The notes beneath the pieces are model-generated. The model worked only from the letters and a program-made list of their open reading frames with translations. It had not been told where the DNA came from and did not search any database. From the NCBI RefSeq assembly GCF_964204865.1, contig NC_135261.1, forward strand, positions 7,750,001 to 7,814,000: DNA of 64,000 nucleotides, in the 5' to 3' direction. The DNA comes from Styela clava (Eukaryota; Chordata; Ascidiacea; Stolidobranchia; Styelidae). Position numbers and translations under genes: made by a program. Positions within the stretch are counted from its first letter, which is position 1. Every line of letters begins with the position of its first letter. Below, in pieces: positions 2,951-63,726 of this stretch.

Positions 2951-5914
2951 TCAGTCTTCTGCGTTTTCGTCTTGACAAGATATTTCAAGAGCGTCATCGA
3001 ACTTTACCAGTGGAGCTAAATCCTCACCCACAAGGGAGTTTGTAGAATCTGCATGATTGCCTGAAGTGTTTGATACTTTATCATGATGTGCAGATAGTGC
3101 GGAATGACTTGAAGCAAAAGACCCGCTTGCTGATCCATCCATAAGATCATCATCATCGTCTAACATTGCAATAGGAGCACTTGCAAGAGAAAAAATGACT
3201 TCTTCTTCAGTATTTATAGGGCTATTCTGATCTGGTTTTTCTGTTTTCAAAGATTTTGAAGATTTCTTTTTATCTTTAGGAGAGTCCTGTTTTGGTTTTT
3301 CTTGAACATTTGGTTGCGGAAATTTATCAGGGTGAGAAACATCTTTTTCCCCACTGCTTCTACGACTTGATTTCTTTGAACGCTTGCCTCTACTGAGCAG
3401 TGGTGATGATTTTTTATAAGAAATTTCATCATCACCAAGCGGGCTTGCACGAGCAAAACTATCTCCACTTGCTCCTAGTAAGCTGTTTTCTCCAACAGAC
3501 GCTCCAGCTGAGCTGTTTGAACGATTACTGCTATTGCGTACATAAACCATTACCCCATCGCCACCTTCTGCAACTGTAATCTCAGGATTTGTTATCTCTG
3601 ATGAAACATCAGAATCAAAACCATCTGGTGCCTTTGAAGAACGTGATGGAAATGATAACGTTGGCTGCTCTGTACTGGAAGTCTTTCTTTCAGGGTTATC
3701 AGAAAATCTGAAGCCATTACTTCCTTGCCAATGCCCAGAATCATCATGTGGCATTGAATCGAGACGTATTTCTTTTCTCAAATCCTTTAAACTGCCTTGT
3801 GGTCGCGGAGGCATTTTATTCAAAACATTTTCTGGTTGATGTAAATGATGGTGCATATGGCAACAGGGATCTGAACTTGGTGGAGGAGGGTATGGTATGT
3901 TCTGCGGACGTGCTGCGCTAGGTTCTGCATAATATGCACCCATCCATGGTACATAGAGAGGCTGGACCGTGGCAGGAGCTGCCGTGAACATTGTAGCTGG
4001 AGGAGTGTACGGGTTAGTACTATTTGAAGGTCTGAAGTCATGCGATGGTGGCAATGCTCCTCCTCCAATTAACATATTTTGAAAATTGAGCATCGCTTTG
4101 TACATGTACTCACCAAGCTTTTCATATGGAGAGGAGGGAGAGGCAGCACTGGGAGTTGACGTCCCAGTAGAAGATGTTGGGAGTGGAAATGGATGTAATG
4201 ATGTTGGTTGAGACGTGGATGTAGAATCTGGAGGCTGCGTTACTTGGTCAAAAGCTCCAAGATGGGCATTGTACGTTGCCATCATTGCTTGAATAAATGA
4301 ACCACTTAGATCGGTTTGAGTGTCTTTATTCAATTTATCCACTTCAATACCATTCACTAATGTAGTGGCAGAAAATGGTGGCAGGTGCTCCGGCTCTTCT
4401 GCAAATTCATTAGCGTTAGGTACCTCAGGTTGCTCCTCCAATCCTGAAGCAAGTTCAAACGGTACAGTTTCAATACTAGGTTGAGAATGAATTTTACGCG
4501 GCACTTCGGGTGAAAATGAATCCAAAGGTGAAGATTCTCCGGTATTAGGATGTCTAGTATCATCACTAGAAATTTTGTGGCTTGATCTCCGATTATCATT
4601 ATCTGATGGTTTTCGATGACGACTCGATCTACGACTGTCATCAGAAGAATGCTTTCTATGGCCCTTTGGTGGTTGAAGAACTTCAACTGAAATTTCATTA
4701 CTCATCGGTCTGGAATGTGAGTCATTCGCTCCATCTTCAGTGTCGGTCAAGTTTTGCTTTGTCGGTCGCATGAATACTGGTGAAGCATGATGATGTGTCG
4801 CATGCTCTCTTTCTCTCCTGACAGCTGCGTCACTGTTAACATACACAGGTGAGGCTGGTGTTCGCTTGTCACTATTGTTTAGAGAAGGCATTGATTTTGT
4901 GGAATTTGTTCTTTTAATTCGCCTCATGTTTCGTTTAGCTTTGCTTTTAGCTTTTGTACTGTTGGTTGTCATATCATCGTAAGATGGTGGGTACTCATCA
5001 TTTTCAACGTCAGAATTACCAAAACGGATATCTTTTGCTGACAAATCAGTCTCCGAAGACGTTTGAGAGTCACGGAGGCTTCGCTTCGAATTTGGTTTAT
5101 CAGATTCATAAGAATTGACAGGCTTGATATTATGTTTATCGAAACGTTTCTCAGGACTGTTTATTTCTGATGAAGGTCGTGTTCTAGCCTTCCTTCCACG
5201 GGTATCGGGATCAGAAAATTGGCGATCTGATGAATCATCATGATAAGGGCGTTGATGTTTAGCTCGGCTTCTCTCATTTAAGTGAGGCTGAGATCTGGAT
5301 CGCCTTGAACGATATTTCTTTTTGGCCTCATGCGGTTGGCGAGGTTCCCGTTTTATTCCTTCTGCATCGCTTCGAGAGTATTCTGCTTCTCCATTAACAA
5401 CAGGACCTTCCAAATTTAAACCCCTATTTCTTTTTCCCCTTGGGTCTCCACCGGCCCAAGTATCATATTTTGATGGTCTTGCTTTATTGTTTGGCTCGGA
5501 GGATCGACGACGATGTCGCTGCGGACTGGGTTCCAGTGTCTTGCTTTTATTTGCTGACGGTGACCTTGCACTCTTTGGTTCTTTAGTAGATCCTCGTGAT
5601 GGAGGCCGTTTTTCTGGTGAAGTCTGACCAAACTGCATTTGCTGTTCTTTTCTCTTGCTTTTGAAGCACACAACAGTTCTTCGTGTCGCATCATCTCCAA
5701 TGCTGAAGCTTGTTAACTTTGGAAATATTTCGGTTACTTTATGGATTAAATATCTCTCATATCCTCGAAGGGGATGAAACATCAATGCCCTGTCTTTTGG
5801 TGCCTGATATTGGAATTGTTCCAGCTCACCAAAAAGAAGGGATACAAAACGTCGATCCGCCGCACTCAAGCTTCTTCCGCCGGTATCTAACATGTGTTCG
5901 ATGTTCGCGTTCAT
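2951..5914 (-). CDS. R3H-domain protein with long disordered tail (R3HCC1-type R3H)
   Basis: One uninterrupted 987-codon frame opening at an ATG at 5914. Residues about 22-88 form an R3H domain, a single-stranded nucleic-acid-binding fold: the signature Arg-x3-His is R54-H58, inside ERYLIHKV, followed by LTSFSIGDD and TRRTVVCF. This form, with 'RYLIH', 'SSFS/TSFS' and 'RRTV', most resembles the R3H domain of vertebrate R3HCC1/R3HCC1L rather than the R3HDM family, and I see no SUZ motif. The remaining 900 residues are low complexity: Arg/Ser/Lys-rich to about 470, Pro/Thr/Ser-rich in the middle with a short helix-like block (EYMYKAMLNFQNMLIG), then Ser-rich with an acidic run (DDDDDLMD) near the C-terminus. 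A cytoplasmic or nuclear RNA-binding role is inferred from R3H only. A four-codon ATG...TAG frame lies just upstream of the start. The long intronless ORF is odd beside the multi-exon neighbours. Confidence 0.85.
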   Translation of the reverse strand: MNANIEHMLDTGGRSLSAADRRFVSLLFGELEQFQYQAPKDRALMFHPLRGYERYLIHKVTEIFPKLTSFSIGDDATRRTVVCFKSKRKEQQMQFGQTSPEKRPPSRGSTKEPKSARSPSANKSKTLEPSPQRHRRRSSEPNNKARPSKYDTWAGGDPRGKRNRGLNLEGPVVNGEAEYSRSDAEGIKREPRQPHEAKKKYRSRRSRSQPHLNERSRAKHQRPYHDDSSDRQFSDPDTRGRKARTRPSSEINSPEKRFDKHNIKPVNSYESDKPNSKRSLRDSQTSSETDLSAKDIRFGNSDVENDEYPPSYDDMTTNSTKAKSKAKRNMRRIKRTNSTKSMPSLNNSDKRTPASPVYVNSDAAVRREREHATHHHASPVFMRPTKQNLTDTEDGANDSHSRPMSNEISVEVLQPPKGHRKHSSDDSRRSSRHRKPSDNDNRRSSHKISSDDTRHPNTGESSPLDSFSPEVPRKIHSQPSIETVPFELASGLEEQPEVPNANEFAEEPEHLPPFSATTLVNGIEVDKLNKDTQTDLSGSFIQAMMATYNAHLGAFDQVTQPPDSTSTSQPTSLHPFPLPTSSTGTSTPSAASPSSPYEKLGEYMYKAMLNFQNMLIGGGALPPSHDFRPSNSTNPYTPPATMFTAAPATVQPLYVPWMGAYYAEPSAARPQNIPYPPPPSSDPCCHMHHHLHQPENVLNKMPPRPQGSLKDLRKEIRLDSMPHDDSGHWQGSNGFRFSDNPERKTSSTEQPTLSFPSRSSKAPDGFDSDVSSEITNPEITVAEGGDGVMVYVRNSSNRSNSSAGASVGENSLLGASGDSFARASPLGDDEISYKKSSPLLSRGKRSKKSSRRSSGEKDVSHPDKFPQPNVQEKPKQDSPKDKKKSSKSLKTEKPDQNSPINTEEEVIFSLASAPIAMLDDDDDLMDGSASGSFASSHSALSAHHDKVSNTSGNHADSTNSLVGEDLAPLVKFDDALEISCQDENAED

Positions 5915-7178
5915 TTTACCTATTCGTCAATTCCAAAGCTACATATGTTCCATTTTACGATAAAAAAAACTGCTGCTAGTCTTCGAAGAATCAAATAAAA
6001 CGGCGAGGAGCCAATGTAAACAGTCGCCGACAATCCACTACACTCGAACAACTCTAAGCTGATAATTCAGAAAGTAGCAGGGTACGAATCAAATTTTGAT
6101 TAAAATTCTGAGAGAGAATAATCCGTATTAACGATATGAAATCATAAGCTAATCTTTATAAGTCGTTCTACTTTAATGATTAAGCAACTACAGTATGCAA
6201 AGCACCAAAATATTCATGAAAAATTAAAATCGCCGTAAAAAGTTGGAACGCCTACTTTAACCTCTGCGCTGTCCGCAAAATGAACTCAACCAATCAACGA
6301 AGCCCTTACGCAGGCTTGACGACAGGTCGCTCCATGATAACGTCTGTATAGCTCCAGGCCGTGGATTAGCTTTTCTTTATTTTCCCGTTTAACTTTCTCC
6401 TGAACTATTTTCATCAAATTAACCATCTGACGAGGATATCCGGCAACCTGACTGCTCATTAGCAAAGTTATCAGGTTTATTATAAGAGCGCAATAACTTG
6501 CCAAATTGGCCTCTGCTTCACCACAGACCAAAGTTTCAAGGTGCAGTGACGTACGGAATTCCACATGTTTAGAAAACAATCCTGCCGGAGGCGTTGATTT
6601 AACAAACAATTCTGTCGTAAAGTGGTCGCAACGTTACGAATTTACCACAGGACAGACTAAACTTGTGGCGCATACTCTGAAAATAGTTTCGTATGTAAAA
6701 ACAAATTTCATCAACGTCCGAGCACAATCGATATGGATGGCACAGACATATTTAGCTCGACTCACTTATTAACGCGAAAAGCGGTATATACATGGAAATA
6801 AAACACCGTACGAACGGTATCACACAAGGCAAGCAAAATATTTAGGATATAATTAATAAAAACGTGACCACGAAAGTTGTACAATTGTATTTTTAACAAC
6901 CAGTAAAATCGGTATTCGATCATAGGAAACACTGCAGAACGTAAGTTGCGGGGGGGCCATTTTGCTATCATATATATATTGTATGTGTTTTCTGGTTTGA
7001 CGAAACAATAAAACAATTCTCTCTCTCTCAAAGCTGATTATTGAGCAGCGACTTGTTGCCGCTAAGCTTACCAACTAAAATCGCCGTGTGGTTTCCAATC
7101 TTTCTCTGAATATTTGTCCCACACTCTATATAAAAGATAAAAAGTATGTTTCTGTTATCGGTTTAATTTGGGAAGAAC
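5915..7178. other. Upstream region of the R3H gene
   Basis: Likely holds the 5' leader and promoter of the minus-strand R3H gene; no TATA box or clear initiator is evident. The block around 6240-6760 is less AT-rich and has overlapping open frames on both strands without convincing start or splice sites, so I call no gene. Confidence 0.4.
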
Positions 7179-34500: not shown

Positions 34501-35724
34501 CTGAGAAAAAAACGTTAGAATATTTAATTTGTTTTGAAAGTTTTACGTAAAAAAAAATTAGTGGACTCTGGATGTAAATATTGATATTTTCTTTTCGTTA
34601 GTGGTTTCGTTGTTGGGGAAAATCGCATTCACGGTAACTGATGAACAATTCAATTTGAAATTTTCAGTAATTGAAGATGAAAGAGTTCACTTAGAGACTA
34701 TAACTGCTTTTAAATATCTAAGAGGCCTGGTATTATACACATATTTCTGCGTCTTCATTTCAATGTACGTGAACATCTTTTATGACGTACGGAGCACTTT
34801 ATTCCGTTGCGCTTGTACGTCGATTGTTTCAGCAAACTCAGTGAAGACATAAATACCGGTACTGGTGCGCGGCTTTCGTATCCATATAAACGAGCATTGG
34901 TCTTTTGTATTTATAGAGAATTATTCACAACATATTTACCGAAAGTATTTTGAATTTTTTATAGTATAACTAAACCACAATTACTTTATGTTTAGACGTC
35001 TGAAAAAGTTGTTGAAAATTTGCCGCAACAAAGAGGACGACTACGCAAATAAGTGCGTAAATAGTGCCGCTAGGAACAAAAGCTTTTTGGTGAGTTTCCC
35101 ATTGATAATAATGTCAGGTATAACAATTTAAAAGACAGAAAAAAGTGCCTTCAACTTGATAATAAATTACCATATTAAAGAAGTTACAATTACCTTCATA
35201 ATAGTTGCTAGAGATTGTAGACATTTTTCGAATTTTATGCCTCACTTTTTGGTTCCCTCACCCAGAGTTCTTTTAATAAACTCATTCAGTAAATACTCTC
35301 ATAATCATATTTCAGAGTAACCGCTCTTGTTCTGTCGGAGAGCAGCAACGTTTCAACAAAGAGCAGAGAATGATATATGTTAGTGTAATCATATGGATTA
35401 CATTTACAGTTTTATTTTTACCAAGTCTCGTTGTTAATCTTCTACCATCGAGGTGCGTATGCATTGTCATACTATTTTTGTTAATTTTTTAGCTTTGTTC
35501 ACTTATTTGCCGTCTTTCTCATTTTATTAACCCGTGTTTTTTTTATTTATTTCCACAGAAAATCGTTGAGTCCGTTGTTTCACATGGCAGCATCAAACGT
35601 GTCATGGTTCAACAGTTGCGTCAATCCGTTAGTGTATGTTGCTCTCCATCGCCGCATGCGGAATGAATACAAGAAAATTATTAAGCGTTGTGTGATTTCG
35701 TTATTTTCGTTAGATCATCATTAA
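25531..35724 (+). CDS. Rhodopsin-class GPCR, nine coding exons
   Basis: Exons 25531-25700, 27184-27384, 29946-30074, 33253-33454, 34097-34222, 34305-34546, 34996-35089, 35316-35452 and 35559-35724 join in phase to 488 codons. All introns are GT-AG. The N-terminus (1-57) has N-glycosylation sites (NIT, NQT). TM1 contains GTFGNS, TM2 LSLVDLL, TM3 starts after a Cys and ends in MNRF where most class A receptors have D/E-R-Y, TM4 has SSWLIAP, ECL2 has the partner Cys, TM5 has FQFLPLVIMIVAYIF, TM6 WITFTVLFLPS and TM7 NPLVY, followed by a basic tail. The third intracellular loop is long (about 140 residues) and charged. NR- instead of DR- at the end of TM3 is shared with melatonin, GPR84 and insect Tre1/Moody-type receptors. 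Ligand unknown. The exon 6 donor (AC|GTAAAA) is the weakest junction. Confidence 0.85.
26846..26931 (+). CDS. Candidate alternative first exon of the GPCR
   Basis: An ATG at 26846 opens 28 codons plus two bases, ending at donor TC|GTGAGA. The phase (2) is the same as that of the first exon at 25531, so it joins cleanly to the TM1 exon at 27184. It would give a shorter acidic extracellular tail with an NET glycosylation site. Codon use looks coding-like: the block is less AT-rich than surrounding intron. It could be an alternative promoter product or chance; no upstream acceptor is needed if it is a true first exon. Confidence 0.4.
28026..28134 (-). CDS. Unassigned exon-like block, antisense in GPCR intron 2
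   Basis: The minus strand shows a pyrimidine-rich tract ending TTTGGTTCAG, then one base completing a codon and 36 open codons, then donor GCT|GTAAGT. The peptide includes GMAGSEQRRQILMHSISH and LKDVGIPASA, a soluble, helix-like composition unlike random AT-rich translation. I do not recognise the family and found no partner exons, so this may be part of a nested antisense gene, a relic, or chance. Confidence 0.3.
29621..29730. repeat. Foldback (palindromic) MITE, copy 1
   Basis: Near-palindrome of 110 bp: left arm GGTACTCTTGAAGTATGCGC, right arm GCGCATACTTCGAGAGGTCC, with CCTGAACCCTAACCTGGTAC and AGGTTGTGCG between. The same unit occurs inverted at 55647-55756, and a relative at 63271-63481. 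It lies within GPCR intron 2. Confidence 0.75.
30071..30237 (+). repeat. Duplicated GPCR intron-3 splice donor
   Basis: The exon 3/intron 3 junction ACAGGTAATTAATT, followed by ATGCGATGAATG, recurs about 127 bp downstream as ACAGGTAATTAATT followed by GTGCGGTGAATG. Using the second donor would bring a stop codon in frame at once. Confidence 0.55.
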
Positions 35725-36947: not shown

Positions 36948-38254
36948 GTAATAGCGTGATATCCCATGATAGTTGTACGTAAGATATTATTGTTGAGCTT
37001 TTTCTGGAACGAATTTGAATAAGAAAAAAAATGATTATTGCATTCCTCTTTCTAAAATATGCAGTAACATCAATCATTACATTACTGAAGTTCCAAACAT
37101 GCCGGGCGTCAATAATTTATAGTTTAAAATTGAAAGAAATACTCAGTTTGTCGTAATTGCTTTTTCATTTTAATATAAATTATAATTATTTTTTCACGCC
37201 ACGTATAACGATTTTCACATTCTCACACACAAACATGTTGTTTAAAAGGTGCGTTGCTATTGTAACTGGTTGGTTCAATGGTGTATAAATCAGTGCGTCC
37301 AGTTTTCTATAGTTTGGATTAGAAATGGAGTTATAAAAAGCTGTATTTTATAAGTATGCAAATGAACTTTCCGCTTTTTATGAGCATATCCGATCTTATG
37401 ATCATCGATATACACGTAATTTAAATTATTGGTGCTATGAAAAACGTAAATTGGTTTTGAGCTTATTCATGCAAATCTGGAACCAGAAATTGAGATGGTG
37501 GTAGTACCAATCTAATTTAAAACACTTTTTCGAGATATTCTGTCAAAAACAATGGTATCATGACTAACGATGGACCAAATTATTAACACGTCAAGATCGA
37601 ATTAGATATCAAAAAATTTAATTATCAATAATTCGAAGAATTTAGTTAAGGCTTTCAGACAATATCAATAAGAATGCTAGGGTTTGGATTTTAATATACT
37701 TTTTCAAACAATCACCAAGAAAAAAAAAAGAAAAAAAAAACTGGACGAAGCTGAAACTGTAGACCATCGTGACTTCTGGTACCGGTGCCCGGAATGCAAT
37801 AGCTTTGCCAGCTCCCGCGATAATGATTATCCATGCATCTTGTACCAACGTGAATTAAAATACAAATGATTAAACTCACAACTGTGATATTAAATCATTA
37901 ACATTACACTAACTTACCGTACCTACCTACAGTGCGTCACCGACAGCCGTTACGCTTGGCGGATTAAAAACAGTGTTCCCGTGAATAAAAAATATTACAG
38001 CGAAATTTTGAAAATACCAGATATCCTAGGATTCATAGAACATATAGGAATAAATGAAATAAATAGCATTCTAGCGACAACAACAATCTTTTATCAATTA
38101 AAATTTTAAAGCAATGCGTTTAGTAGTGAAAGGGAAAAGCGATTTTTTCGTAACAACAAGAACATGAACTTTACAAAGAATTCTAAAAATAACAACATAA
38201 TAATAAAACGATTTATAGGGCCATTTCGTGTCCAAAAACAGATGTCTCCTAGCA
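36948..38254. other. Gene-free stretch before the duplicated cluster
   Basis: AT-rich, with an A-rich tract near 37720-37740. No supported gene or element. Confidence 0.45.
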
Positions 38255-48624: not shown

Positions 48625-51600
48625 CTATAAGGCCCAATTCACGAGTCCTGACATTTCGTTTTGCTGAAGTTGCTCCATTGTAGATGTCGGTCTAAAGTGA
48701 GCCATAGCTTGGTATTGTGCTTGCATAGGTTGAGTTTGATTCACATTTTGTAGTTGAAAATTCCCCGTTGCGTTCGTAAAATCTAAATAATAAAAATTAT
48801 AAATTCTGTTTTATATTCTTACGCGCCGGCGTACGGTCAGAGTAAATAAAAAATTAGAGATATCATGATGAGCTGTCAACAGAAATTTCTCAAAGCTTAT
48901 GCAGCATTGATCCATCCTATTATTTATCACATGGAAGATATGTCCAATGCTGAAAGTAATGCGAGTGACCACAAGTTAATGTTCGTTAATTTAAAAACAC
49001 CGTTTCATACTTAACGCTGCAAAGGGATTAATAAAGCAATTTATAATCAATTCATGAATCTACAACAGATTAAACCTTTAAAATTAAATGAAGGCATTGC
49101 CAAAAATTTATTTTCTTATTAATTATTTTATTTTTTTATAAGTTTGCTGTAATTTATGACAGAAGAGAATCACTATATTAGGAGGTTCATTCACTGTCAA
49201 ATGCTGCACAAAATCAAACCTTAAAGTCAGCCGCGATAACGGGGACAAACGAAGACACATGTACATTGAGTTTTATATTACTATGAAAGGCATTTAAAAT
49301 TCCAAAATATGGGTATTCAAAATGCTATACACACCATGATTTGGACCGATAGTAACAACTGGAGGAGGCGGCTGTCTAAACAACGAACACGATTGTGTGA
49401 TGCCAGATGCTTTATCAGTATCCTGTGCCTTACAGCTTCTGCTCGTATCTCTGAAACCTTGCAAAACAAAAGTTAACATTAGTCTATAAAATAATTTCGT
49501 TTTGTTCTTTTACAGGATCAACTAAAATTTGCAATTGCCGAATTATAATTTCTGGAACTGATAATTTTTTCTGTTTTTTTTTTTCAATTATCGGGGTTTT
49601 CTAGACTAAACGGATATTTCCAATACTTCAAACTTTTTTAGGCCAATAATTGTAATTTGGACATTCACATATCTTACCTTTTGCAAAAGGATTTTTATCA
49701 ATTTTTAATTTCGTTATTTGTTGATTCTGGTAAGCTGTAACAGTGGTAAACTGTGTCTCGGCAAATACAAACGTGATCACGTTTTCCTGCGATGTGTCTA
49801 CGCTTTGCGTGAGAATTACCGTTTCACATTCACGCACTCCATTTCCTTCACACTCAATCAAATGTATGCGAGGTTGGTATTTGTGCATTGAATGTAAGAT
49901 GATCTGAAAATTGAAAGTACTCAATTAGTTCCTAATCGTGCTAGCATGTATGCAAAATTATAGAAACTGAACTCATGAGCCATTAAAACTCTTTCATATC
50001 AATTCGACTTGTAAGTATTGAAATTAAAAAAAATCGGGCTGGGAAATGGGACATGTATTTAAAATGAATGCAAAAAAAACAATCCTGAAATATGTCTCAC
50101 ATGTCCTTTTTCGTTTCCTTCATTGTTTGTCAGCTTCATTTTATCAAAAACGACTGTTTGTTTCATCCATGTTTCTCCTGTAGCGGGTGACTCTGGGTGA
50201 ACGTAAGTACGTTTTGGAACATCCGAAGTAACGTTTCCAGCTGCAATCCATTGGGAACTTGTATAAGCATATCTAGGTAATGTAAGGAGAAGAGAAAGAG
50301 AGAAATGTGAAAGAAAGGCGAAAGAAGAAACGAGAGAACTGAGTCAAAGAAGTGATGATAAAAAGTAAGGTAAAAGTATTTTATTGCTGTGACGTGATTA
50401 AATATGGAAAAGAATTGCAGAAAAATTGCAAAAAAAATAAAAATGAGAAAGATTCAAATTGTATAAAGCATATAAACAAGGATGAATCAAAACTCAAGTA
50501 AGCGAAAACCATTCAACGATATTTTTGTCGTACCTATATCTTTTGTTATCAATCGGTAATACATCCACAGCCATTATGTATTTTCTTTGTGGTTGAAGGC
50601 CAGTAATATTGATTTTCAATGTTGGAAACATACGTCTGAAAAAAAAAAGCAATACAAAATTGAGTGACTGGGGTTATTTCATCCAAAAAATTGAAAAAGA
50701 TAATTCCTTATTTCAAGAATTTAATTTTACCTTAAATGAAGTAAACTACAAGTTTAAAGTTTACGACTCAATTCCAGTTAAATTAATTCACAAGGCTCAC
50801 CTTCCAGCCTTCGTGATTATCATCTCCGTACCGATTTCGTGAAATTTCTGCCAGAGTTCATGACTCAAAAGTTCGAGTTGAATTGAGCTGGAATATTCTT
50901 TCAACTTCGGAAGACCTGAATAATAAATATTATATAATATTACATCAATCGAGAAGAAGAGTTCACTTATAAAAAACCAGACATTTTCAACAAGGTTTGC
51001 TCTCTGATTTTATGCCTATATTACAAAAAAGGTTAATTTTCATCAACAGCATAATTGAAAGTTATAAATTCTAAGTTGCATTTTATGCTTCAGTGCTATT
51101 GAATGAACCCTGTCGATAACATTTTGCAAACACATTTATACCTGCGGGAACATGTTCGTTGTTGTAAAATTTCATCCGATGTGAATTGCCAACCATAATG
51201 TTTTGATTAGTATAATTCAATTGTTGTGATGCGCATTGAGACGTTGCAGGAGATTCTGAAACTAAAATTACGTCATCGTCTTCATCTTCAGTCCTTTGAT
51301 TTGTTGACATCATTGTGTGAGCCTCTGAAAGCGCCGTAAGATTGGCGGCATAGTCATTTGAATTTTCATAAAATCTGTACATATCGTTTGGCATCGTCTC
51401 CGTGTTATAGTTTGCATCGTTACAATATTGATTAAAGTGAGTTTTATAGTTGGATTCAAAGTTAGAACAAGAATCGTTGTTAGTTTCTTGAACGAAATAA
51501 GGTTGCTGAACTGGCAAGTTTGAGCAGTTCCAGGAGTCCTCGTTATATGGCGTCCCCATGTTATTAGGTAGGGTGGGAACTCCATTGACGTCATATTGAA

Positions 51601-52953
51601 TATTGTCAATGCCAGAATATATATTAGGACCATGTTGTGTGTGGGAATTGTGAGGGTGTGGCTGGTGTGAATAACAATCCACTGTAGGAAGATGCGCCTG
51701 TAATTCAGCGAATTTGGGAGTGGGCGATTGTTCGTTAAATTGTCTGTCTTCCTTGTCTAGTTCGTAGTTGTGACTGAAAAAAATTATTCACAATATTAGT
51801 CATTCTAGGAATATTATTTTTGCAACTGTCAAAAAATCAGCATAACATAAATCGAATAATATTTATATTTAATTCTAATAATCCTAACACTTACTAATAT
51901 ATATATTTTGATAAACACGAATCGCTTGATCCCAAAATAATAATTGATGTTCAATTCACAATTCACATATGGTGTGTCACGATGGCGACGTACCGAAAAT
52001 TCAACATAAAATATATATACTGTTTCTTTGACGTCGATTTGAAAATATTGCAAAACAACCTTAAACTGGAATCAAACCTTTCACCAAACGCAAAAAATGT
52101 TTCTCTTAATGTATACATTTAATTACCTATTATAATTTCCTGTACTGTATTGATGAAATATTTCTGATGAATTGTCTGGTTGGCGAATACTTAGAGCGTC
52201 TGAATGACCGTACATATTGATATTTGAAGTTTCAGTTGCGAGTGGGTTTGGGATCGTCATATCTTCACTGTCCAAATAAAGACCCCCAAAAGTTTCTAGT
52301 CGATGGAAATCAGTATGTGCGTTATCGACTGAATGATTTAAAGTACAAAATATTTTGTCCGGAGACGTTGACTTGAAATTGTTCTCTTCAGCTGTGTGAG
52401 GTGATTCGTTCATCTTTGACAAGCTAGAGAAAACTTTAGCTTGATCAGATGTGGGATTGTTTTCATAATAATCTGGACATGTATTTTCATAAGAAACTAT
52501 GCCATTTGTATTTGTCCAAACATTGTTTTCTGAGATGTAAACTGATTCATCAACATTGTTCGTTGAAATCTCCATGTATGATCGCTTTGGTATTGGTGAG
52601 TCGCAATAATGCTCGTTATGCGATAGAAATCTTTTTCTTTCATTGAGGGTTGTTGATATTAGATGTTCTATAGTAAAATTATCCGAAATTTGCCCTTGAG
52701 TCTGATTTTCATTAGAGAGCAATCGCATTTTGCGTTGCACATTTTCAAATTCAAAGACCTCATTGACGGGATTTTGTTCGGGAAACTCTGCATCATGAGA
52801 TGAATATATTTTTGATAAAAAATGTGATGCCTTCTGAAAACTGTCGTTGTAACTTATTTGTGTACAAGGAGAACTCTCAGTGTCATTTCCTAACGTCTGA
52901 TTAATGTTATTCTCTTCGGCAATGAGCATATTTGTTGGTTCTCTAGTATCCAT
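48625..52953 (-). CDS. T-box transcription factor, Tbx6/Tbx16 type, eight exons
   Basis: Exons 52127-52953, 51142-51773, 50801-50915, 50534-50635, 50101-50272, 49678-49903, 49335-49457 and 48625-48782 join in phase to 784 residues, all GT-AG. The T-box DNA-binding domain spans about residues 498-695: [113 protein letters not shown] and IILHSMHKY place it with Tbx6/Tbx16/VegT rather than Brachyury. In ascidians this group acts in tail-muscle and mesoderm specification (known for the family; inferred here). The stretch between IHLIE and FAET is about a dozen residues longer than usual. The N-terminal 497 residues are Asn/Ser/Thr-rich with an acidic run ([14 protein letters not shown]). The C-terminal 90 residues are Gln/Pro-rich. 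A TTTCAG acceptor lies 46 bases before the ATG. Confidence 0.92.
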
Positions 52954-53631
52954 ACTTGTTTTTGAACTAAATATAAACAGCGGCCCGGAACTTAGTTTTC
53001 TGAAACCAACCAGGTTGAATTTGTAGATTAATCTACTAAATTCACTTACTATTTTATTTTACCTACTGCATAAATACAAATAAAAATCAATTTCCAATAG
53101 GTCTAATAAAAAAGTTATATTTGCATTATTATTCTAATGAATCATTTTGAAAAATACTATTTTGTACACTCGTAAATAAATATAGATCTTCATTTCTCAG
53201 TACCATCAACTGTTCACACACAGTGGTATACCCATCAATCTCGCGATCGATATGATATATTTCAAAAAAGAATTGTTATTATTGAATTGAGTGAGTTTTT
53301 TATGCATTGGAAAAAAGTTCTCATTAATTCAGAGGAAATCTAAGAAAGCCAGGCTGATTTAGCTTTTCAGTGGGAGAAGGAGAGAATAATTTTAACAAAT
53401 TTGTTAAATTTATGTGACATATAATGTAATGTGGTTTTCATTAGATTACATTGAAAAATATTTTCATTGTTACATAGTTACAATACCGTGAAGTTTAGAA
53501 TCCAGGTATAATAATAATGAAAATCAAAATTTGATTGAATATTTTTCCTATTATACAAACTTAACACATATATATTTTTCTGCCACCTTGATATTTGTCA
53601 AAATAACACCTGAAAATCACACTTTTCTCTG
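52954..53631. other. T-box 5' region, possible leader intron
   Basis: Contains the acceptor GGTTGGTTTCAG (exon would start at 52999) that could receive either a spliced leader or the leader exon at 53640. No coding sequence supported. Confidence 0.4.
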
Positions 53632-53860: not shown

Positions 53861-54949
53861 AAATTAATAGCTGCTAAAGTGATTAGATTAAATGAATATA
53901 TTTATATAGATTTTAATATTTGCAAAAGATCTTATTTCAAGTTTTGGTTGCATCTTGTACACAATGAAAATTAATATGTGGTATTATTTCCAACAAAAGC
54001 TTTAGGAATAAAAACTTATAAATTGTCAAACATTTGTTTTATGACATTGTCATATTTATTTTTGCAAATTAGAATGTATTGCAAACATATTTATATAAAT
54101 ATCTCATTTGAAGTAGACGATGTTTAAACGTATTTATATAAATATCCCATTTGAAGTAGACGATTTTTAGCTTTAGCTTTCTGTTAAGTAGAAACATTTG
54201 GTACTATAGAAAGTACTTATAAAATTCCAAGTAACTACAAAACCTTGTTTACTTACAACATGCACTTAATCACATATCTCTAAACTTTTTAATTTTATAT
54301 TATAGTGGGAAATATTCTATACATTCACAAAGTAAAATTCAATTCAAGAGGATCGATTTGAATATTATTGCAAATTTGACACTGATTTTCATTAAATGAT
54401 TGTTGGGCTTGGAAAATCAAAATTAGGAAATCCGCGTTCACTATCTCGTGCAGAGTCTTATCTGGATATTTAAATAATAGTTCCTATGTATCTAGTTTGC
54501 TCGAATTTTAAAGTACGTATGTATCAAATCATTAGAAGAAAGAGTGAAAAGAGGACAAAAACTTCCATGTATATGATATATGTATATGAGTGACAGCAAA
54601 TTATTTACATTTAATTGTTTTCCGTTTAAACTAAAATTGCGGTTTTGCAATTTGCAATAAATCTATTGACAGAAGTTAAGTAAACAAATTTTTAGTTGTC
54701 TATCAATTTTGTGCAAAATTATCCTGTCGTCTGTACGTACTGTAAATTTAAAAATGACAGCTTTTCAAATGATGATATTGATGCAAATATTTTAGAATAT
54801 ATACAAATATATTCATATCATCCGTATACAATATACCTATGATTTTTTTTAATTTATGCTGAGAATTTTGTCTTATGCATGTATTGTCGTTTCGGTCCGA
54901 ACGCTGATAATTTTTTGCTAGTTAGCAACAAACTATTATCGGACACGAA
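53861..54949. other. Intergenic stretch between T-box and repeat
   Basis: AT-rich, no supported gene. Holds the 42-bp tandem duplication at 54085-54168. Confidence 0.5.
54085..54168. repeat. Two 42-bp tandem units
   Basis: ATTTATATAAATATCTCATT and TGAAGTAGACGAT recur as ATTTATATAAATATCCCATT and TGAAGTAGACGAT immediately after, with one internal difference. Confidence 0.85.
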
Positions 54950-55320
54950 ATGTACATATGGATCGTTTTGTTAATATGTTGTTGTTGGTGGTGGTGTTCT
55001 CGTCTTTGCATCGCTTTTCTCATTATCCATTAGACCAATTGCTTTGAAATGTTCAGTGGTCAAAGATTGTTTTTTTTTTTCGCTAAAAGGCTATTACTTT
55101 CATTTATTTTGAAAATATCTGTGGGCTGTATGAGATTTGTTATTTTGTGCGCAATGTCGTCATCAAATATTGCGCACCTTGTGGTGGTTCCGCAATGGAG
55201 TTAGTTGTGAACACCGCTGTACCGGTAGTCTTCTGTAAAAGTTTGCATATCCCTACTAACTTCGTTTTGGTTTCCATGTCCATATATTTAGGGATCGCTC
55301 TCTTTTTTATTTTTTTTATT
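54950..55320 (+). repeat. Dispersed repeat family, copy 1
   Basis: Shares with 60450-60790 (inverted) and 62405-62660 the ordered motifs ATGTTGTTGTTG, GACCAATTGCTTT, TCAAAGATTGT, a variant of TTCGCTAAAAGGCTATT, TGCGCACCTTGTGG and ATCGCTCTCTT. No protein frame is conserved among copies, so it is a non-coding mobile repeat of unknown class. Confidence 0.65.
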
Positions 55321-55756: not shown

Positions 55757-57104
55757 TTAATATCTGTAACATTATTTGGCTCAGCCTGAAATAAAGAGAT
55801 TTTTTAATATAGTTACTGTGGCCCGATTAAATGAAATTTATCAATAAATTATCTTAAACATCCGTTGTACTCCGTGAATTTGATATGTGTAGACGGGTGA
55901 TAGCACTGCTGAACTAACCTAAGGCATATGCGCATTTGTTTTTAAGATTTAGTGTATATTGCCTAATTGACAGTAAAGATGGATAGGAATTTAATGCATT
56001 TTCCCAGTTATTATTTACCAATGCTGTGCTGTGATCGCAAAAGTTCGGATTAATTTTTTGCGTCATCAATTGGGTTCATTGCGTGCGTTCAAATCACAGA
56101 ATTAATTGACACCAACTTAGCTCGTAATTCATGATCATACTAATATGTGCTTAATTTCGGATACGAAATATGCAATAAATAACAATTATTGTGATTATGA
56201 AATGAACGTTTTTGATTCCGATACAGCCCGAGGGACAAGATTATCTGATGCTACGTAAGGATAAGTAATAGGAATAGGAATGTGTCATTCCAAGAGATAT
56301 TATGCGTTTCAGAGAATGAAAAGAGCGTTGAAATGAGAGATATCAAAAACACGAAGCATTTGTTGCATTTGTCTCTGAATTACTAAACTTTATTTGTGAA
56401 CGTTAGTTGACTGGAATGAACTTGTTTTTAAAATACCGCTTCGTTGTCGGCCTCAAAACTCGTAGAAAGGTTGTATATTTCAGCATGAGCAAGCAAATCC
56501 AAATTTGGGACCAACAAATAAATAGAGATATTATTGAACAGCTATAGTTAAGCATAAATAACTAAATAAATGAGTAACAAAAGTCAAAATATCCCCATTA
56601 GTGCCGTTGGTTGCATTTCAGCAATTGAAGTTAACGAAAAATCTCTTTTGATTTCTATGGTGAACGATAAACGTTGGTGATGTCGTTCATGGACAGTTGT
56701 ATCTGTTTATAGCATTTTTCAGGCGAGAATAGTTTGCCAGCCGGACAGAGTGAGCTCAATTTGTGAGATCGTGAAATCATTCTGACCAATCTCCCAACTG
56801 AAAACGATACAAAAGTTTATTTAGCTTATATATTTTCACCGTTGAAACTTTTGGGATAAGATAACATCCTAAAAGATCAAATGTCTGAATATTTTGCAAA
56901 TTTTGAACTTTATATACCTGTCGTATTTATCAGTTATCAGTTATTTTGTAGGATAAAAATACCAAAAGTTTAAAAAAATATTAATTCTTCTTGCCTTTTG
57001 TTGTAACTGACTCCAGTTATAATTTGCGAAAAAATTTAACATTAAAATTGACAGACTTTTCAATTAATAATTACATATTTATAAAAGTCATTTTCTTAGT
57101 CAAC
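55757..57104. other. Upstream region of the first collagen-discoidin gene
   Basis: No coding region supported. Ends with the 3' splice site TTTTCTTAG (57099) five bases before the ATG. Confidence 0.45.
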
Positions 57105-60076
57105 ATGATAACAACTTTGTGGAAAATTATTTGCTTGATTTCTCTTTGGACATTGATGCATGTGTCATTTGCTGACGAAGTCGGAACAAGTTGTTCGACC
57201 ACACTTTCCATTGTGCGAGAACTTTTAAATAAAGATAGTGACAACGTATGTGGGAATTCGTGTCAAGGAAGGCCTGGCAAAAGGGGATCGATTGGGCCCA
57301 CAGGCCCCCAGGGACGAAAAGGACCCCCAGGATCATGTAAATGTGATATTAGCATTGTTGAAAAGCTCCAAGAAAGAATTAAAGAACTTGAAGGTCTGTT
57401 ATTATTGTAACCGCCTGTTTGAAAATGCTTTTTTAAATAATTTCAAAAATCAAGCATACAAGCAATAATTGTTTTCTTCAACTTTTTGGATTTACCTTGA
57501 TTGGGGATTGATTTGACATTGTTGTGCGACTGCGGCCTTTTATAACGACTCACATAAATCAATACTATACGTTGTTAAATTAAATTTTTAAAGTTCCCAA
57601 TTTTTACTTTATCAGTACACAGATTTACTCTCAATAATTTTCAAACAGCAGCGGTATCTATGACAAAAAAATGTATATTTGCAACTGGATAAAGAGTAAC
57701 ACAGAAAATCACATCATATTTCACGCATAATGTTTTATTAGAAAAGAGCAATTCTCTTCTTGGTGGATACGAAATTGGCGCAGAGATACTAGTAAGGCCT
57801 TACATAGGCAACGAGTTTAATATAAAAACCTATGGACAAGCGTGACGTAAAGTTACATAACGTGCAAAACAAAATTTGGTGTGAAAAATTGACGTCGAGA
57901 TCTGGAACGTATTTGAAATGAAATGAAAGTAGTAGAAAATTGATTAATTCAGTAGTTGCATTGAAACTTTTTTACAAACCCCAATAACAACAAAAATAGC
58001 AATATTACATAATACTCGGGTCTACTTGTAATCAACAAATAAAGATAGTAGACTATAGAGAATGTAAACATTCAACTTTTTAGAAGAAAGGGGAAATTAA
58101 ATCCTTTGAGATATATGACGTTCACATTGCATGCCAAATTTGGGTCGATGTTATCATTCGGAACTCAACCGCATCAGTTTAACGAATAAATTTTGTAATC
58201 TAAATCCGGTCATGTTCACTGAATACGCTCAATTTTCATCGCCTCAGGTGCTACAATAACATTTGGAAATTTTTGTTTTGCGTTATTGAACTTTTTTAGT
58301 TAAACCTAAATCTACAATAAAAATATATTAATGTCGTTTTGTAAAAGCGGAAATCAGCTTTGCTTCGAGCAAGGATCTTTCCAAACAGTAAATCAAATTT
58401 ACTTATTCTATCCGCCCAGCACAACCCAGGGATCGTACAGCATGAACTGATTAATTTAATGATTAATATGCAAATTAGTTTTGATTTAGTGATGATATGG
58501 TGATCACATTCTGTATTATTACCTACATTCGACAAATAAACCGACATTCGGCCAAATAAATTGAATCTTGAAACTCAATCGGTAGTAACTTTAAAAATAA
58601 AAATAATGTGTATTTTGTTTTCTTAGAATTTCAACGTTTTGTCAGCAAAAAATTATGTAAGTGAACTCTTTTAAACCTAACTGAACAAATTTAATATTCG
58701 TCGGTATAACACCAGATACAAAGTCAAGACTTTGAAAGAGACAAACCGACTTCATTTTCAACTTTTTTGTAAATATGAAGTTATCTCAATTATTTATTAT
58801 CAATTTATTATCTCCCTGTCGTTTATTTATAATTTCATAAATACCACATATGATGCCATACTTGTTATACTAAATTTCGAAAAAAAAATGTGTCATTTAT
58901 TGCAAAGCAAGAAATTCAAAACAACCTTCACCCTATCAATTAACGATTTTTGATTGATATTTCGATAACCTGATAGATTTCTATGTTGACTTAATTTTTT
59001 CTCAGTTTGCAAGTACGTTTTTAATTTTCAAATATGGACCATGCGTGTTGATGATCTGCTTTGAGCTTAATCGTAGTTTATGCAGAAACATAAATACCGT
59101 AATTATCAAATCAGCACTGTATATGTAACAAAAATTGTTATATTTTTTGTTTTAAAGCAATATGCTATGCTGGAATTTCATCTGGAGAAATACCAATAGC
59201 AAGTGTTACGGCATCATCAGTTCATAGTACATGCAAACTAAGTAACGTTCCACTCAACTCAGGTGCAGCATGGTGTGCCAAAATAAGTGAGTTTTATATA
59301 TTCATCCAACTTCGTGAATCTCACAAGTTCACACCTCATTTTCATATAAAATTTTTCAAATACCTCTGCGTCAAAGCAATCATTTGGCTCTTAACAATCT
59401 GAAAAATGTTCAAATTTATCAAACTTATCTAACTCAGTGAATCTCACAACTAAACTCCCGATTTTAATGTATTTTTTTTTCACGTATCTCATGTCAAAAC
59501 AATTCTTTGACTCAATCTAAATGTTTATATTTATCAGACAATGTAAATCAGTGGGTGCAAGTAGATTTGAAATCTCCAAGACGAATTATGGGCATAGCAA
59601 CGCAAGGAAGAATTGACTGCTGCATCCAGTTTGTCAAAACATACTCAATATCTTATGGCGATACTGTCACAAGTCTAACGACCTACAAAGAAAAAGGATC
59701 AGCAAAGGTCAGTACCTGCTTATCATGAGGGCCAACTTGTGCGATTTGTAAGAATTTTCAATTTAATATCACTTGCTGCAAAATGAACTGTTGAAAATGT
59801 CGATCTAATTTTGATGAAAGGGAGACGTAAATAATATGCAAAATAACTTTTTTGCAATCAATCTACTAATTGAACTAATTGAATAACCAAGGGGGAAAAT
59901 TTGAACTATTTTAATGTTCTTTTTGTGATTTGCTTCAGATATTTTCGGGAAATTCTGACAAGAACACAGTCGTAAAAAACTACTTCCAGAAGCCAATCAC
60001 CGCAAGGTATTTCAAAATTCATCCGGTAACTTTCAAAGGTTGGATGAGTATGCGAATCGAATTATTGGATTGTTGA
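57105..60076 (+). CDS. Secreted collagen-like/discoidin-domain protein 1
   Basis: Exons 57105-57393, 59158-59286, 59538-59707 and 59939-60076 give 241 residues with GT-AG introns in phases 1, 1 and 0. Residues 1-23 are a signal peptide (LWKIICLISLWTL...SFA). Cys30, Cys49 and Cys53 precede eight Gly-X-Y triplets (residues 55-78: GRP GKR GSI GPT GPQ GRK GPP GSC). CKC and a heptad-like neck (IVEKLQERIKELE) follow. Residues 99-241 are one F5/8 type C (discoidin) domain, opening CYAGISSG, with NQWVQVDLKSPRRIMGIATQ, GRIDCC, IFSGNSDKNTVV, ARYFKIHP and closing MRIELLDC. The family binds sugars, phospholipids or collagen. Cysteine-locked collagen triplets plus a neck suggest a secreted trimer or higher oligomer, as in collectins and ficolins (inference). 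Start chosen because ATG 57105 opens the signal peptide; the frame upstream has no better ATG. Paralogue follows at 61140. Confidence 0.9.
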
Positions 60077-60449
60077 GAAAGAATAAAAATATTGGAAGAT
60101 CAGTAGAGACTAGTTACACAATATGCGTCAACTATATCTTTAAATTGTAATATACTAATGAAATTTTATAGCCTCATAACGCTTTTACGGGATGCTTGTA
60201 TTGAACGAAATTGTAAATTCAATAAACATAGTACAAAGAACGATGAAGATTTGTATTAATTCTAAAGAAGATGACTTTCAGAGTTCCACTTTAGGAAAGT
60301 AAGGTATACAAACGTAATAATCAAAATGTTGATGGTCGACAGTCAGTTCAATTATAGTTAGGTGATGAGGTTAGTACAAATGCGCACCTTTACTGCTTTT
60401 AACTCCAAAGCATTAAAGTGATTAGTATATCAACATTTATTAAGAGAGC
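60077..60449. other. 3' flank of collagen-discoidin gene 1
   Basis: AATAAA-type hexamers occur just past the stop (about 60083) and near 60219; either could end the transcript. Nothing else recognised. Confidence 0.5.
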
Positions 60450-60790
60450 GATGCTCGAATATATATTAACGTGTACGAGTATGCAAGCTGTCACAGTATC
60501 CCACCGGCACCACAATCTTCACGACTAACGCAAACGCGGAGCCGCCACAAGGTGCGCAATTTTTTGTTACATCATAAAACACAAAAAACGAATCCATAAA
60601 GTCCACAGAATTCCACAAAATAATCCCATGAAGTCCACAGAATAAAACAAATAGCTTTTTAGCGAAAAATACAATCTTTAACCAGTGAAAATTTAAAAGC
60701 AATTGGTCTAGGAGGATGACGATTTCTCCATAACGATAAGAAGAAAAATAGCAACAACCACAACAACAACATAATAATAACAAACGCTCA
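60450..60790 (-). repeat. Dispersed repeat family, copy 2 (inverted)
   Basis: Reverse complement of the family at 54950; best-kept segment is AATTGCGCACCTTGTGGCGG and the GTTGTTGTTGTGGTTGTTGC start. Lies between the two collagen-discoidin genes. Confidence 0.65.
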
Positions 60791-61139
60791 ATAAATGCAA
60801 AAATTCAAATCTTGCAAGATTACGTAGATATTGCGTTAAGGAAACTGTTAATATGTTTCTGCAGTACCTATGCTTGTTACATTTCACTTAATAAGCGGGC
60901 TTGGTTACAGCTTATTAAGCTCGATGGTTTCCTTCCTGTACCCATTCCTCAAAGGTAATTCTTCCTCGTCAACTTGAATGTTCGTCAACATTCGGCATAT
61001 GCTCGGCAGAATTATATTTTTGGTTTTATCCGAGGTTGCATCGCATTGTAAGCCGCTTTCAGAGTATTTATATCATAATATTTAGCATATTAATAATTTG
61101 AAGATTGTATTTTTACATTTTCAGAAGAAAAAAAATAAA
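60791..61139. other. Upstream region of collagen-discoidin gene 2
   Basis: Promoter presumably here; ends with acceptor TTACATTTTCAG (61124), 15 bases before the ATG. Confidence 0.45.
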
Positions 61140-63726
61140 ATGAGCTGTAATTTTAAAATATCTATTATAATATTTTTACTCTTTGCCATTTTTTGGAAAC
61201 AATCTTTGAGTCAGGAACATGGGTCTTGTCAATCTAAATTGTCCGCCATACAGAACATCCTAAATCGTGATAATGGAAATTCTGACTCGTCGTGTGCTAT
61301 TGGTACCTGCCAAGGAAAACCCGGAAAGAGAGGGCCTGCAGGACCTCGAGGGCCCTTTGGTTCAAGAGGGCCAAGTGGGCCAAAAGGAACTTGCAAATGT
61401 GATCTCAGTGTGGTGGAAGAACTCAAGCAACAGATAAGAGAATTACAGCGTCAGTTCATTATAACGTTTGGGAATAATAGCTGATTTACATAATAAATTG
61501 TAATAACAAAGATCCTCTCATTATAGGATAAAAACTTTTTGCGGGGCCACGGTTTTGAGAATAAAATAAACCAATCATGACAGGAATTTTAAAATATCGA
61601 TGGAATCGAATAAAATTTCTATGTTCTGGTGCAATAGGAACACATTTTTCACAAAACTAACATATTGGTATTTCCCGCAGTTGGTTTGGCACAGTAAAGA
61701 CATGAAAAATAATTATTATAAAGCTAAGTATGACAGCCAAACTTTTATCCTTCTTTTTCGATTTTTCAGATGCACAGAGAATGGTCAGCAAAAGATCAGG
61801 TAACATGTATATCTCACTTATGATATATATAAAACAGAGGTATATTATTTCTGTTCTCGCAGTTAAAATTTTTTTTATGTTAATATGGAATGCATTTAAT
61901 GATGATAACATAGTAATGCCAGGATTTAGCGTTAAAATGGGACCACAAAAAGGACACAATAAAATAAATTGTTCTGATAACCCCTGACCGAACTCAATAG
62001 TTTCTCGCACATACTTCTGGTGAGACGTATCTATATGAAACTATCAAGCTGGATTATTATTTTAACTTCAAATTTTCTTTCAACTCCAAAGCATTATGCT
62101 ACGCTGGAATTGCTTCTGGAAAAATTACGGCCTCATCAACTCATGGATCCTGCCAGCTGAAAAACGTTCATATCAATTCCGGCGGTGCTTGGTGTGCAGG
62201 AACAAGTGAGTGTCATTGTGTTATTCTTCATTTTATTCGTACTCCTTCTTCACCCTTCCTATTGCTTGTTTATACTTGTTTTTTTGCCCCATTTTCTTAC
62301 TTACACCTCACATATATTCAGCACATTTCCTTTTTTTGCCACTACACAGTTGTCTTCCTTACTCAGTAATATTTGAACTCTGGTGTCTTTCTTATTGTAT
62401 TGGAATTGTACATATGGATCGTTTTATTATTATGTTGTTGTTGTTCTTGTTGGTATTTTTTTCTTCTTATTGTTATGAGAAAATTGCTTCGAAATATTCA
62501 GAGGTCGAAGATTGAATTTTTTGCTAGAAGGCTATTACTTCTGTTTATTTCAAAAAATTTCTGTGAAATTGATGTTATTTGTCTACTGTGATAGATTGCA
62601 TCGTACTACCTTGTTTTGGTCTTAGTGTCCATATATTTGAGCATCGCACTCATGGTTTTTTTTTTCTACTTCTCTCAGGCTTCAATGTGATTTTTAGTTT
62701 GTAACTTAATTAGGTCTCTCTTCTAATTCGTCTTGTTGTATAACTTCTGTACTCACGACTCTTCATAACAAAATATTTGAAATACTATACTTTTATATAT
62801 TATTCTATATTATATTGCTATTCAGATGACGCAAACCAATGGGTTCAGGTTGATCTGAAAAGTCCAAAGCAAATTACTGGCATAGCAACGCGAGGAAGGT
62901 TTGATTGTTGCCCCCAATGGATAAAAACGTACAAAGTTTCATATGGAAATAGCGTGAGCAATCTCACAATATACGAAGAAAATGGATCACCGAAGGTTAA
63001 ATTTGTCAATGTTTTGCACATGTTTCAATGAACAAAACATAACATCATAAAAGTGCTTTAAATTACAGTAACGCAATCATCAAGGTATCACATGTATTTT
63101 TCACACAGTATTTTTTGGAATCAGCAAAATGACATTTTATTTGTCGTTTTATAGTAAAGACATGAATTCCTTCTTTGTGAAGTAAATAAAAAGCTTACAC
63201 GTTCCTGTATCTGATTAGTATTATAAAATGTCAATGGAGAGGACTTTGAAAATACTATAAAATAAACGGCGCTCCAGAAGTATGTGTACCAATATGGAGG
63301 CAACTAATTTTGTTCGCCTACGTTATATCAAGTTGTTTAAAAGAACTGGAACCTATGGGCAGGGGGTATATTCACTTGGCTAACACAGACAGTCCCCGAA
63401 CTCGTAATAGAACTAAAATACAGAAAATCGAAATAAAATCATAGCCTAACCATAACCTGGTACACATACTACGGGACTACCAAATAAAAAGCTGTAGCAA
63501 TAAATAAGATGTGGAAAATATTGGTAAGAATTTATTAATAAAATCTGTCCTAAATCAATAATGTTTTCATTTTTGTATCAATTTTCAGATATTCTCCGGA
63601 AATTCCGACAAGAACACGATCGTGAAAAGATACTTCCGCGAATCCATCACTGCGCGATACTTTAGAATTCATCCTCTTGCATTCAATGATTGGAGAAGTA
63701 TGCGCATAGAGTTGTTAGATTGCTGA
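61140..63726 (+). CDS. Secreted collagen-like/discoidin-domain protein 2
   Basis: Exons 61140-61449, 62092-62205, 62826-62995 and 63589-63726 (243 residues), with a possible extra 30-base exon at 61770-61799. Signal peptide 1-24 (FKISIIIFLLFAIFW...SLS), Cys30, Cys52 and Cys57, then nine Gly-X-Y triplets (59-85: GKP GKR GPA GPR GPF GSR GPS GPK GTC). A CKC and helical neck (VVEELKQQIRELQ) follow, then one discoidin domain: CYAGIASG, AWCAGT, NQWVQVDLKSPKQITGIATR, GRFDCCPQW, IFSGNSDKNTIV, ARYFRIHP, MRIELLDC. Exon sizes 170 and 138 and the intron phases are identical to gene 1, so the pair arose by tandem duplication. Role inferred as for gene 1. The exon 1 donor (C|GTCAGT) is weak-to-fair. The large intron before the third listed exon holds a dispersed repeat. 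Confidence 0.9.
62405..62660 (+). repeat. Dispersed repeat family, copy 3
   Basis: Shares TACATATGGATCGTTTT with copy 1 and GCTAGAAGGCTATTACTT with minor changes; lacks the GCGCACCTTGTGG segment. Located in an intron of collagen-discoidin gene 2. Confidence 0.6.
63271..63481. repeat. Terminal-inverted-repeat element related to the foldback family
   Basis: Left end CTCCAGAAGTATGTGTACCA and right end TGGTACACATACTACGGGAC form an inverted pair and resemble the arms of the elements at 29621 and 55647. It lies in the last intron of collagen-discoidin gene 2. Confidence 0.55.

Follow-up and report, generated by a model that had tools for sequence, protein, structure and literature searches.

Two adjacent genes in the 64,000 nt stretch of DNA that was analysed (the window) each encode a small protein in which a very short collagen stem is followed by a single F5/8C (discoidin) head. 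Both are on the forward strand and contain five exons, with gene A at 57105–60076 encoding a product of 251 residues and gene B at 61140–63726 encoding a product of 253 residues, in translated models that were built by hand from splice sites and stop-to-stop frames. A sequence-only reading had proposed two tandem collagen-discoidin genes at 57105–63726, with 8–9 Gly-X-Y triplets and one F5/8C domain each, and this was borne out. The ATG of gene A begins at 57105 and the stop codon of gene B ends at 63726, the stems contain 8 triplets in A and 9 in B, and Pfam placed one F5/8C domain in each product (E 6.2e-26 for A and 4e-26 for B). On balance, with a little better than even confidence, we interpret A and B as old tandem duplicates encoding secreted adhesion or recognition proteins that follow the plan of the collectins and ficolins and would form a disulfide-linked trimer, or a larger oligomer, displaying discoidin heads. 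The features of the two genes and of the sequence directly upstream of each are as follows.

57098–57099, + strand: AG of an acceptor-like site, 5 nt 5′ of the gene A ATG (putative role)
57105–57393, + strand: gene A exon 1, signal-like N-terminus, Cys 30/49/53, 8 Gly-X-Y triplets, CKC end, first part of the neck
57267–57338, + strand: gene A Gly-X-Y run, 8 triplets, 5 Lys/Arg, no Asp/Glu
58627–58656, + strand: gene A exon 2, 30 nt, phase 1-1, second part of the neck
59158–59286, + strand: gene A exon 3, start of the F5/8C head, Cys 109, 132 and 146
59538–59707, + strand: gene A exon 4, F5/8C head, Cys-Cys 177-178
59939–60076, + strand: gene A exon 5, end of the F5/8C head, last Cys 251, stop
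61123–61124, + strand: AG of an acceptor-like site, 15 nt 5′ of the gene B ATG (putative role)
61140–61449, + strand: gene B exon 1, signal-like N-terminus, Cys 30/52/57, 9 Gly-X-Y triplets, CKC end, first part of the neck
61314–61394, + strand: gene B Gly-X-Y run, 9 triplets, 6 Lys/Arg, no Asp/Glu
61770–61799, + strand: gene B exon 2, 30 nt, phase 1-1, second part of the neck
62092–62205, + strand: gene B exon 3, start of the F5/8C head, Cys 116, 134 and 148
62826–62995, + strand: gene B exon 4, F5/8C head, Cys-Cys 179-180
63589–63726, + strand: gene B exon 5, end of the F5/8C head, last Cys 253, stop

All eight introns of the two genes have GT/AG ends, a single open frame runs through each model, and the intron phases (1/1/1/0) are the same in both. 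Exon 2 (30 nt), exon 4 (170 nt) and exon 5 (138 nt including the stop) are identical in length in A and B, while exon 1 (289 and 310 nt, respectively) and exon 3 (129 and 114 nt) are not. The introns all differ in length, with introns 1–4 spanning 1233, 501, 251 and 231 nt in gene A versus 320, 292, 620 and 593 nt in gene B. Pieces of a dispersed repeat that are 70–76% identical and occur in both orientations were found at 54947–55316, 60518–60793, 62403–62665 and 38137–38212, with one piece lying between the two genes and another in intron 3 of gene B. In gene A, an imperfect direct duplication (71%) at 59304–59439 and 59427–59553 lies in intron 3 and runs over the boundary into exon 4. Tandem repeats formed eight arrays in the window, none of them within the exons of A or B.

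We considered whether the fusion is a misreading, with the collagen exon transcribed separately from the discoidin exons. Retention of intron 1 would introduce a stop after 5 codons in A and 11 in B (counting the donor codon), so a stem-only product could exist, and the linking exon 2 consists of only 10 codons and is weakly conserved. However, the exon order, the phase-compatible GT/AG sites and the 30 nt linking exon are kept in both copies, and the open frame around exon 3 lacks, in A as in B, a Met ahead of the point where the conserved head begins. Separate transcripts are considered very improbable. Because exon 2 is 30 nt long and in phase 1-1, skipping it would keep the frame and yield a neck that is ten residues shorter.

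A pyrimidine-rich stretch and an AG are found directly 5′ of both ATGs (57080–57105 and 61100–61140), with TATAAAAG at 57080, upstream of gene A. These acceptor-like sites are possible acceptors for spliced-leader trans-splicing or for an intron in the 5′ UTR. Spliced-leader trans-splicing is common in tunicates. A 16-base Ciona spliced-leader sequence had no match on either strand, which says little.

When the window was searched with the products of A and B using tblastn, no further copy was found, and the best match outside both genes had an E value of 0.78. Several other genes could be recognized in part. A T-box gene is located on the minus strand at 49631–53058, where the frame at 49631–49924 matches Pfam T-box (E 1.1e-24). 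The match covers 79 residues against 67 profile positions, indicating that roughly twelve residues are inserted. The nearby long frames at 51086–51787 and 52126–53058 had no Pfam match and may be other exons of the same gene. A 991-residue open frame on the minus strand at 2954–5926 encodes an R3H domain (E 3.1e-6) close to the N-terminal end. On the plus strand, the frame at 27122–27385 matches the start of a rhodopsin-type seven-helix receptor (E 3.5e-9) and the frame at 35485–35721 matches the end of one, below threshold (E 0.089); these are possibly a single gene extending over about 8 kb. The T-box and receptor frames indicate an animal source, though no narrower group. A tRNA scan of the window detected no genes.

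In both proteins, the most hydrophobic 10-residue stretch is within the N-terminus and no strongly hydrophobic stretch was found beyond it; the products are probably secreted. The Gly-X-Y run is uninterrupted and occupies residues 55–78 in A and 59–85 in B. In a six-frame translation of the whole window, these two runs were the sole stretches of at least four Gly-X-Y triplets, and as both are also in frame between conserved cysteines, a chance origin was rejected. The Pfam Collagen model, which spans 20 triplets, scored 15.8 bits in A and 20.1 bits in B, under its cut-off of 27.2, presumably because the stem is short. Proline occupies the Y position in only two of the eight triplets of A and one of the nine of B, and a free-standing triple helix this short would therefore be weak. 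A neck of approximately 25 residues separates the CKC from the F5/8C domain. Its heptad score at the a and d positions was matched by 1367 of 20000 shuffles for A, 2781 of 20000 for B and 943 of 20000 for both jointly. The layout that had been proposed earlier, namely signal peptide, cysteines, collagen, helical neck and F5/8C domain, was thus recovered with an N-terminus that is signal-like, but the shuffles make a helical or coiled-coil neck a marginal and weakly supported element of it.

The stem is strongly basic, with five (A) or six (B) Lys/Arg and no Asp/Glu over 24–27 positions. Its calculated pI is approximately 11.7, and that of the protein minus the first 24 residues is 9.3–9.5. A stem of this composition may bind polyanions. 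It would also suit linkers in a matrix or surface coat, such as the tunic, the cuticle, the egg coat or a larval adhesive, in which the basic stem would sit on sulfated polysaccharide or collagen while the heads hold cell surfaces. This is a possible alternative, if a doubtful one, and it gains some support from the binding of collagen by the discoidin domains of DDR1/2 described in PMC4332414. The same source describes loop 1 Trp52 as the residue used by DDR2, and A and B may differ from DDR2 here, as they contain no Trp between TASS and AWC, a point that counts against the linker role.

The head was identified using Pfam F5_F8_type_C, which scored 91.4 bits in A and 92.1 bits in B (cut-off 28.2). 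The overlapping F5_F8_type_C_2 family matched more weakly in both, and a weak match to Muskelin_N in B (E 0.18) was disregarded. No C-type lectin, fibrinogen or C1q head was found in A or B among Pfam families up to E 1, and no kinase domain was found using Pfam. When solved chains were compared, the best 60 of 68 for A and the best 60 of 67 for B began with factor V/VIII C domains, including those of a snake-venom factor V relative, followed by lactadherin, the neuropilins, retinoschisin and discoidin-1. F-type lectins carry the sugar-binding motif HX24RXDX4(R/K) and are reported to be absent from tunicates (PMC5712786). The motif had no match in either head with a spacing of 20–30 allowed, and membership of A and B in this group was rejected. 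A comparison of the head alignment of A and B with viral and genome contigs produced 69 and 85 pattern matches, none of them confirmed, as expected for an animal gene.

Eleven cysteines outside the signal-like region are at matching places in A and B, five in the stem and six in the head. These shared cysteines, the alignment of head cysteines with loops, the charge of the stem and the skippable exon 2 had not been part of the sequence-only reading. In each chain, three of the stem cysteines precede the collagen and two are at or after its end (CKC). As five is an odd number, at least some interchain pairing would be expected, and the shared stem cysteines together with the collagen run would suit an oligomer. 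The counts and the alignment suggest that the six head cysteines could form three internal bonds. One of these would be the putative bond between the first and last cysteines of the F5/8C domain, which are present in both copies (109/251 in A and 116/253 in B).

The remaining four head cysteines (132, 146, 177 and 178 in A) appear to be situated in loops of the ligand face. In DDR2, ligand is bound by the top loops of the discoidin fold, and the binding face is described as including the loops between strands 1-2 and 3-4 (PMC4332414). In an alignment with factor V C2 (1sdd_B), A and B have a cysteine in place of the first Trp of the Trp-Trp pair and another in place of the Gln of AWQ, while the Cys-Cys pair covers a Leu of a later loop and the position next to it. 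The four probably form disulfide clamps on these loops. In factor V, the Trp-Trp pair and the Leu insert into membranes, and the replacement of Trp and Leu by cysteines makes lipid insertion in the style of factor V unlikely for A and B. If the loop placement and this role in factor V are both right, the ligand face would be disulfide-clamped and would lack those hydrophobic tips.

The two proteins share 140 of 246 aligned residues. Over the whole protein, pS is 0.73, which is near saturation, and pN is 0.28. The contrast is marked in the head (pS 0.69, pN 0.17) and in the collagen part (0.88 and 0.25), and is also seen in the N-terminal part (0.82 and 0.50). There is little in exon 2 (0.50 and 0.38), which has only 10 codons and 5 of 10 residues identical, and none in the signal-like first 23 residues (0.58 and 0.62). 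Using blastn with E values up to 0.01, exons 3, 4 and 5 of the two loci aligned at 68–76% identity and there was one additional 20-base match; apart from this match, exons 1 and 2 and the introns gave no alignment. Exon 1 could be aligned as protein (A against exon 1 of B, E 9.6e-19). Purifying selection has maintained both the collagen part and the head, and their order is unchanged between A and B, which is the strongest available argument against separate transcripts. With synonymous sites near saturation and the protein retained, the collagen-discoidin fusion is a maintained gene structure.

A further reading is that A and B act in recognition at the gamete surface, as paralogues that diverge in their loops. 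The tandem duplication and a 5-residue length difference located directly before the first loop are in keeping with such a role. However, the whole head is under purifying selection, and the difference between the loops (19 of 35 residues identical) and the rest (76 of 104) was not significant (Fisher p 0.058), with the loop residues chosen after the alignment had been seen. Faster evolution of the loops is not claimed, and a gamete-surface function is considered improbable.

One functional version of the interpretation that we favour is pattern recognition in the body fluid, in which A and B would be discoidin-headed equivalents of the collectins and ficolins that opsonize or agglutinate microbes and possibly recruit MASP-type proteases through the stem. 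This is a tentative possibility. Apart from the head, the plan of A and B resembles that of collectins and ficolins, and MBLs, ficolins and MASPs are reported from tunicates (PMC5465252). The stems also contain sequences resembling the MASP-binding motif, taken here from descriptions in PMC2592599 and PMC3179595, namely PGKRGS in A and PGKRGP in B. However, PGK.GP is absent from A and arose in 2683 of 20000 shuffles of the stem of B, while the shorter PGK.G arose in 4916 of 20000 shuffles for A and 4358 of 20000 for B. In the strict motif, Xaa is aliphatic or Met; neither protein has this form, as Xaa is Arg in both. With the relaxed form frequent in shuffled stems and the strict form absent, the motif was dropped as evidence for a link to complement. 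Either this motif or divergence of the loops could have favoured immune recognition, and neither did. On the present evidence, soluble recognition molecules cannot be told apart from linkers of a matrix or coat. A more far-reaching proposal, which we consider unlikely, is that A and B would join C1q, the collectins and the ficolins as another class of proteins that initiate innate recognition and are built on a collagen stem. This class would combine a discoidin head clamped by disulfides with a polycationic mini-collagen, in a lineage which, if tunicate, is reported to be without F-type lectins.

In collectins (MBL, SP-A/D and CL-10/11), the signal peptide is followed by N-terminal cysteines, a collagen stem, a neck and a C-terminal globular binding domain. 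A and B have this order in common with collectins, but have an F5/8C domain where collectins have a C-type lectin head, a stem of 8–9 triplets without an acidic residue, and cysteines on both sides of the collagen. Ficolins also have the same order and share the PGK sequence in the collagen stem, but their fibrinogen domain and the strict MASP motif are missing from A and B, and the C1q family is set apart by its C1q head. The likeness to collectins and ficolins noted in the sequence-only reading therefore holds for the order of parts, with no head of the collectin, ficolin or C1q type found up to E 1; it is a likeness of plan only, and membership of either family fails on the head domain. Among the solved chains listed, the nearest relatives of the head were the factor V/VIII C domains and lactadherin C2. 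Retinoschisin, which forms disulfide-linked octamers, is a small secreted protein, as A and B probably are, and shares with them a single discoidin domain and extra cysteines, but has no collagen stem.

Other combinations of collagen with a C-terminal head are on record. Collagen is combined with a C-type lectin domain in proteins described in PMC3269628, and the same source describes nematogalectin of Hydra and Clytia, a 28 kDa component of the nematocyst tubule with N-terminal Gly-X-Y repeats and then a galectin domain. Nematogalectin is like A and B in having a head other than a C-type lectin after the Gly-X-Y repeats, but the head is a galectin. Rotifer C1q-like proteins are described as having a similarly short collagen of about 30 residues with nine glycines before the C-terminal head (PMC8878817), which is C1q rather than F5/8C. 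DDR1/2 share the fold of the head and an involvement of collagen with A and B, but are described as membrane kinases that bind collagen (PMC4332414), whereas A and B contain a collagen stem and no kinase. Searches of the open-access literature found no paper that, judged by its title and abstract, deals with a collagen-discoidin family, and the earlier statement that this is not a named family holds against those searches. In passages of PMC6626399, PMC12549020, PMC514892, PMC5549309, PMC12321717, PMC3269628 and PMC10855680, discoidin or F5/8C domains appear only in other combinations or counts. Unannotated relatives of A and B are expected to exist in other invertebrate genomes.

For the oligomer that we favour, three chains would be joined by the very short collagen triple helix, the cysteine clusters flanking it and the short neck. 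The five stem cysteines of each chain would tie the chains together within the trimer and link trimers into larger oligomers. A trimer would present three F5/8C heads, allowing multivalent binding driven by avidity, and each head would use the loops at the top of the discoidin barrel, probably clamped by the four extra cysteines, to bind its ligand. The basic stem may add binding to polyanions, for example sulfated glycans.

The cysteines found at the Trp and Leu of the factor V C2 loops suggest that the ligand face of the discoidin fold is used differently here. If confirmed, A and B would provide a small natural case of a trimer in which only 8–9 Gly-X-Y triplets and clusters of cysteines hold the chains together. 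They would also indicate that the plan of the collectins and ficolins, a short collagen stalk with an interchangeable head, has been built with a discoidin head as well, the fold used by coagulation factors, neuropilins and DDRs.
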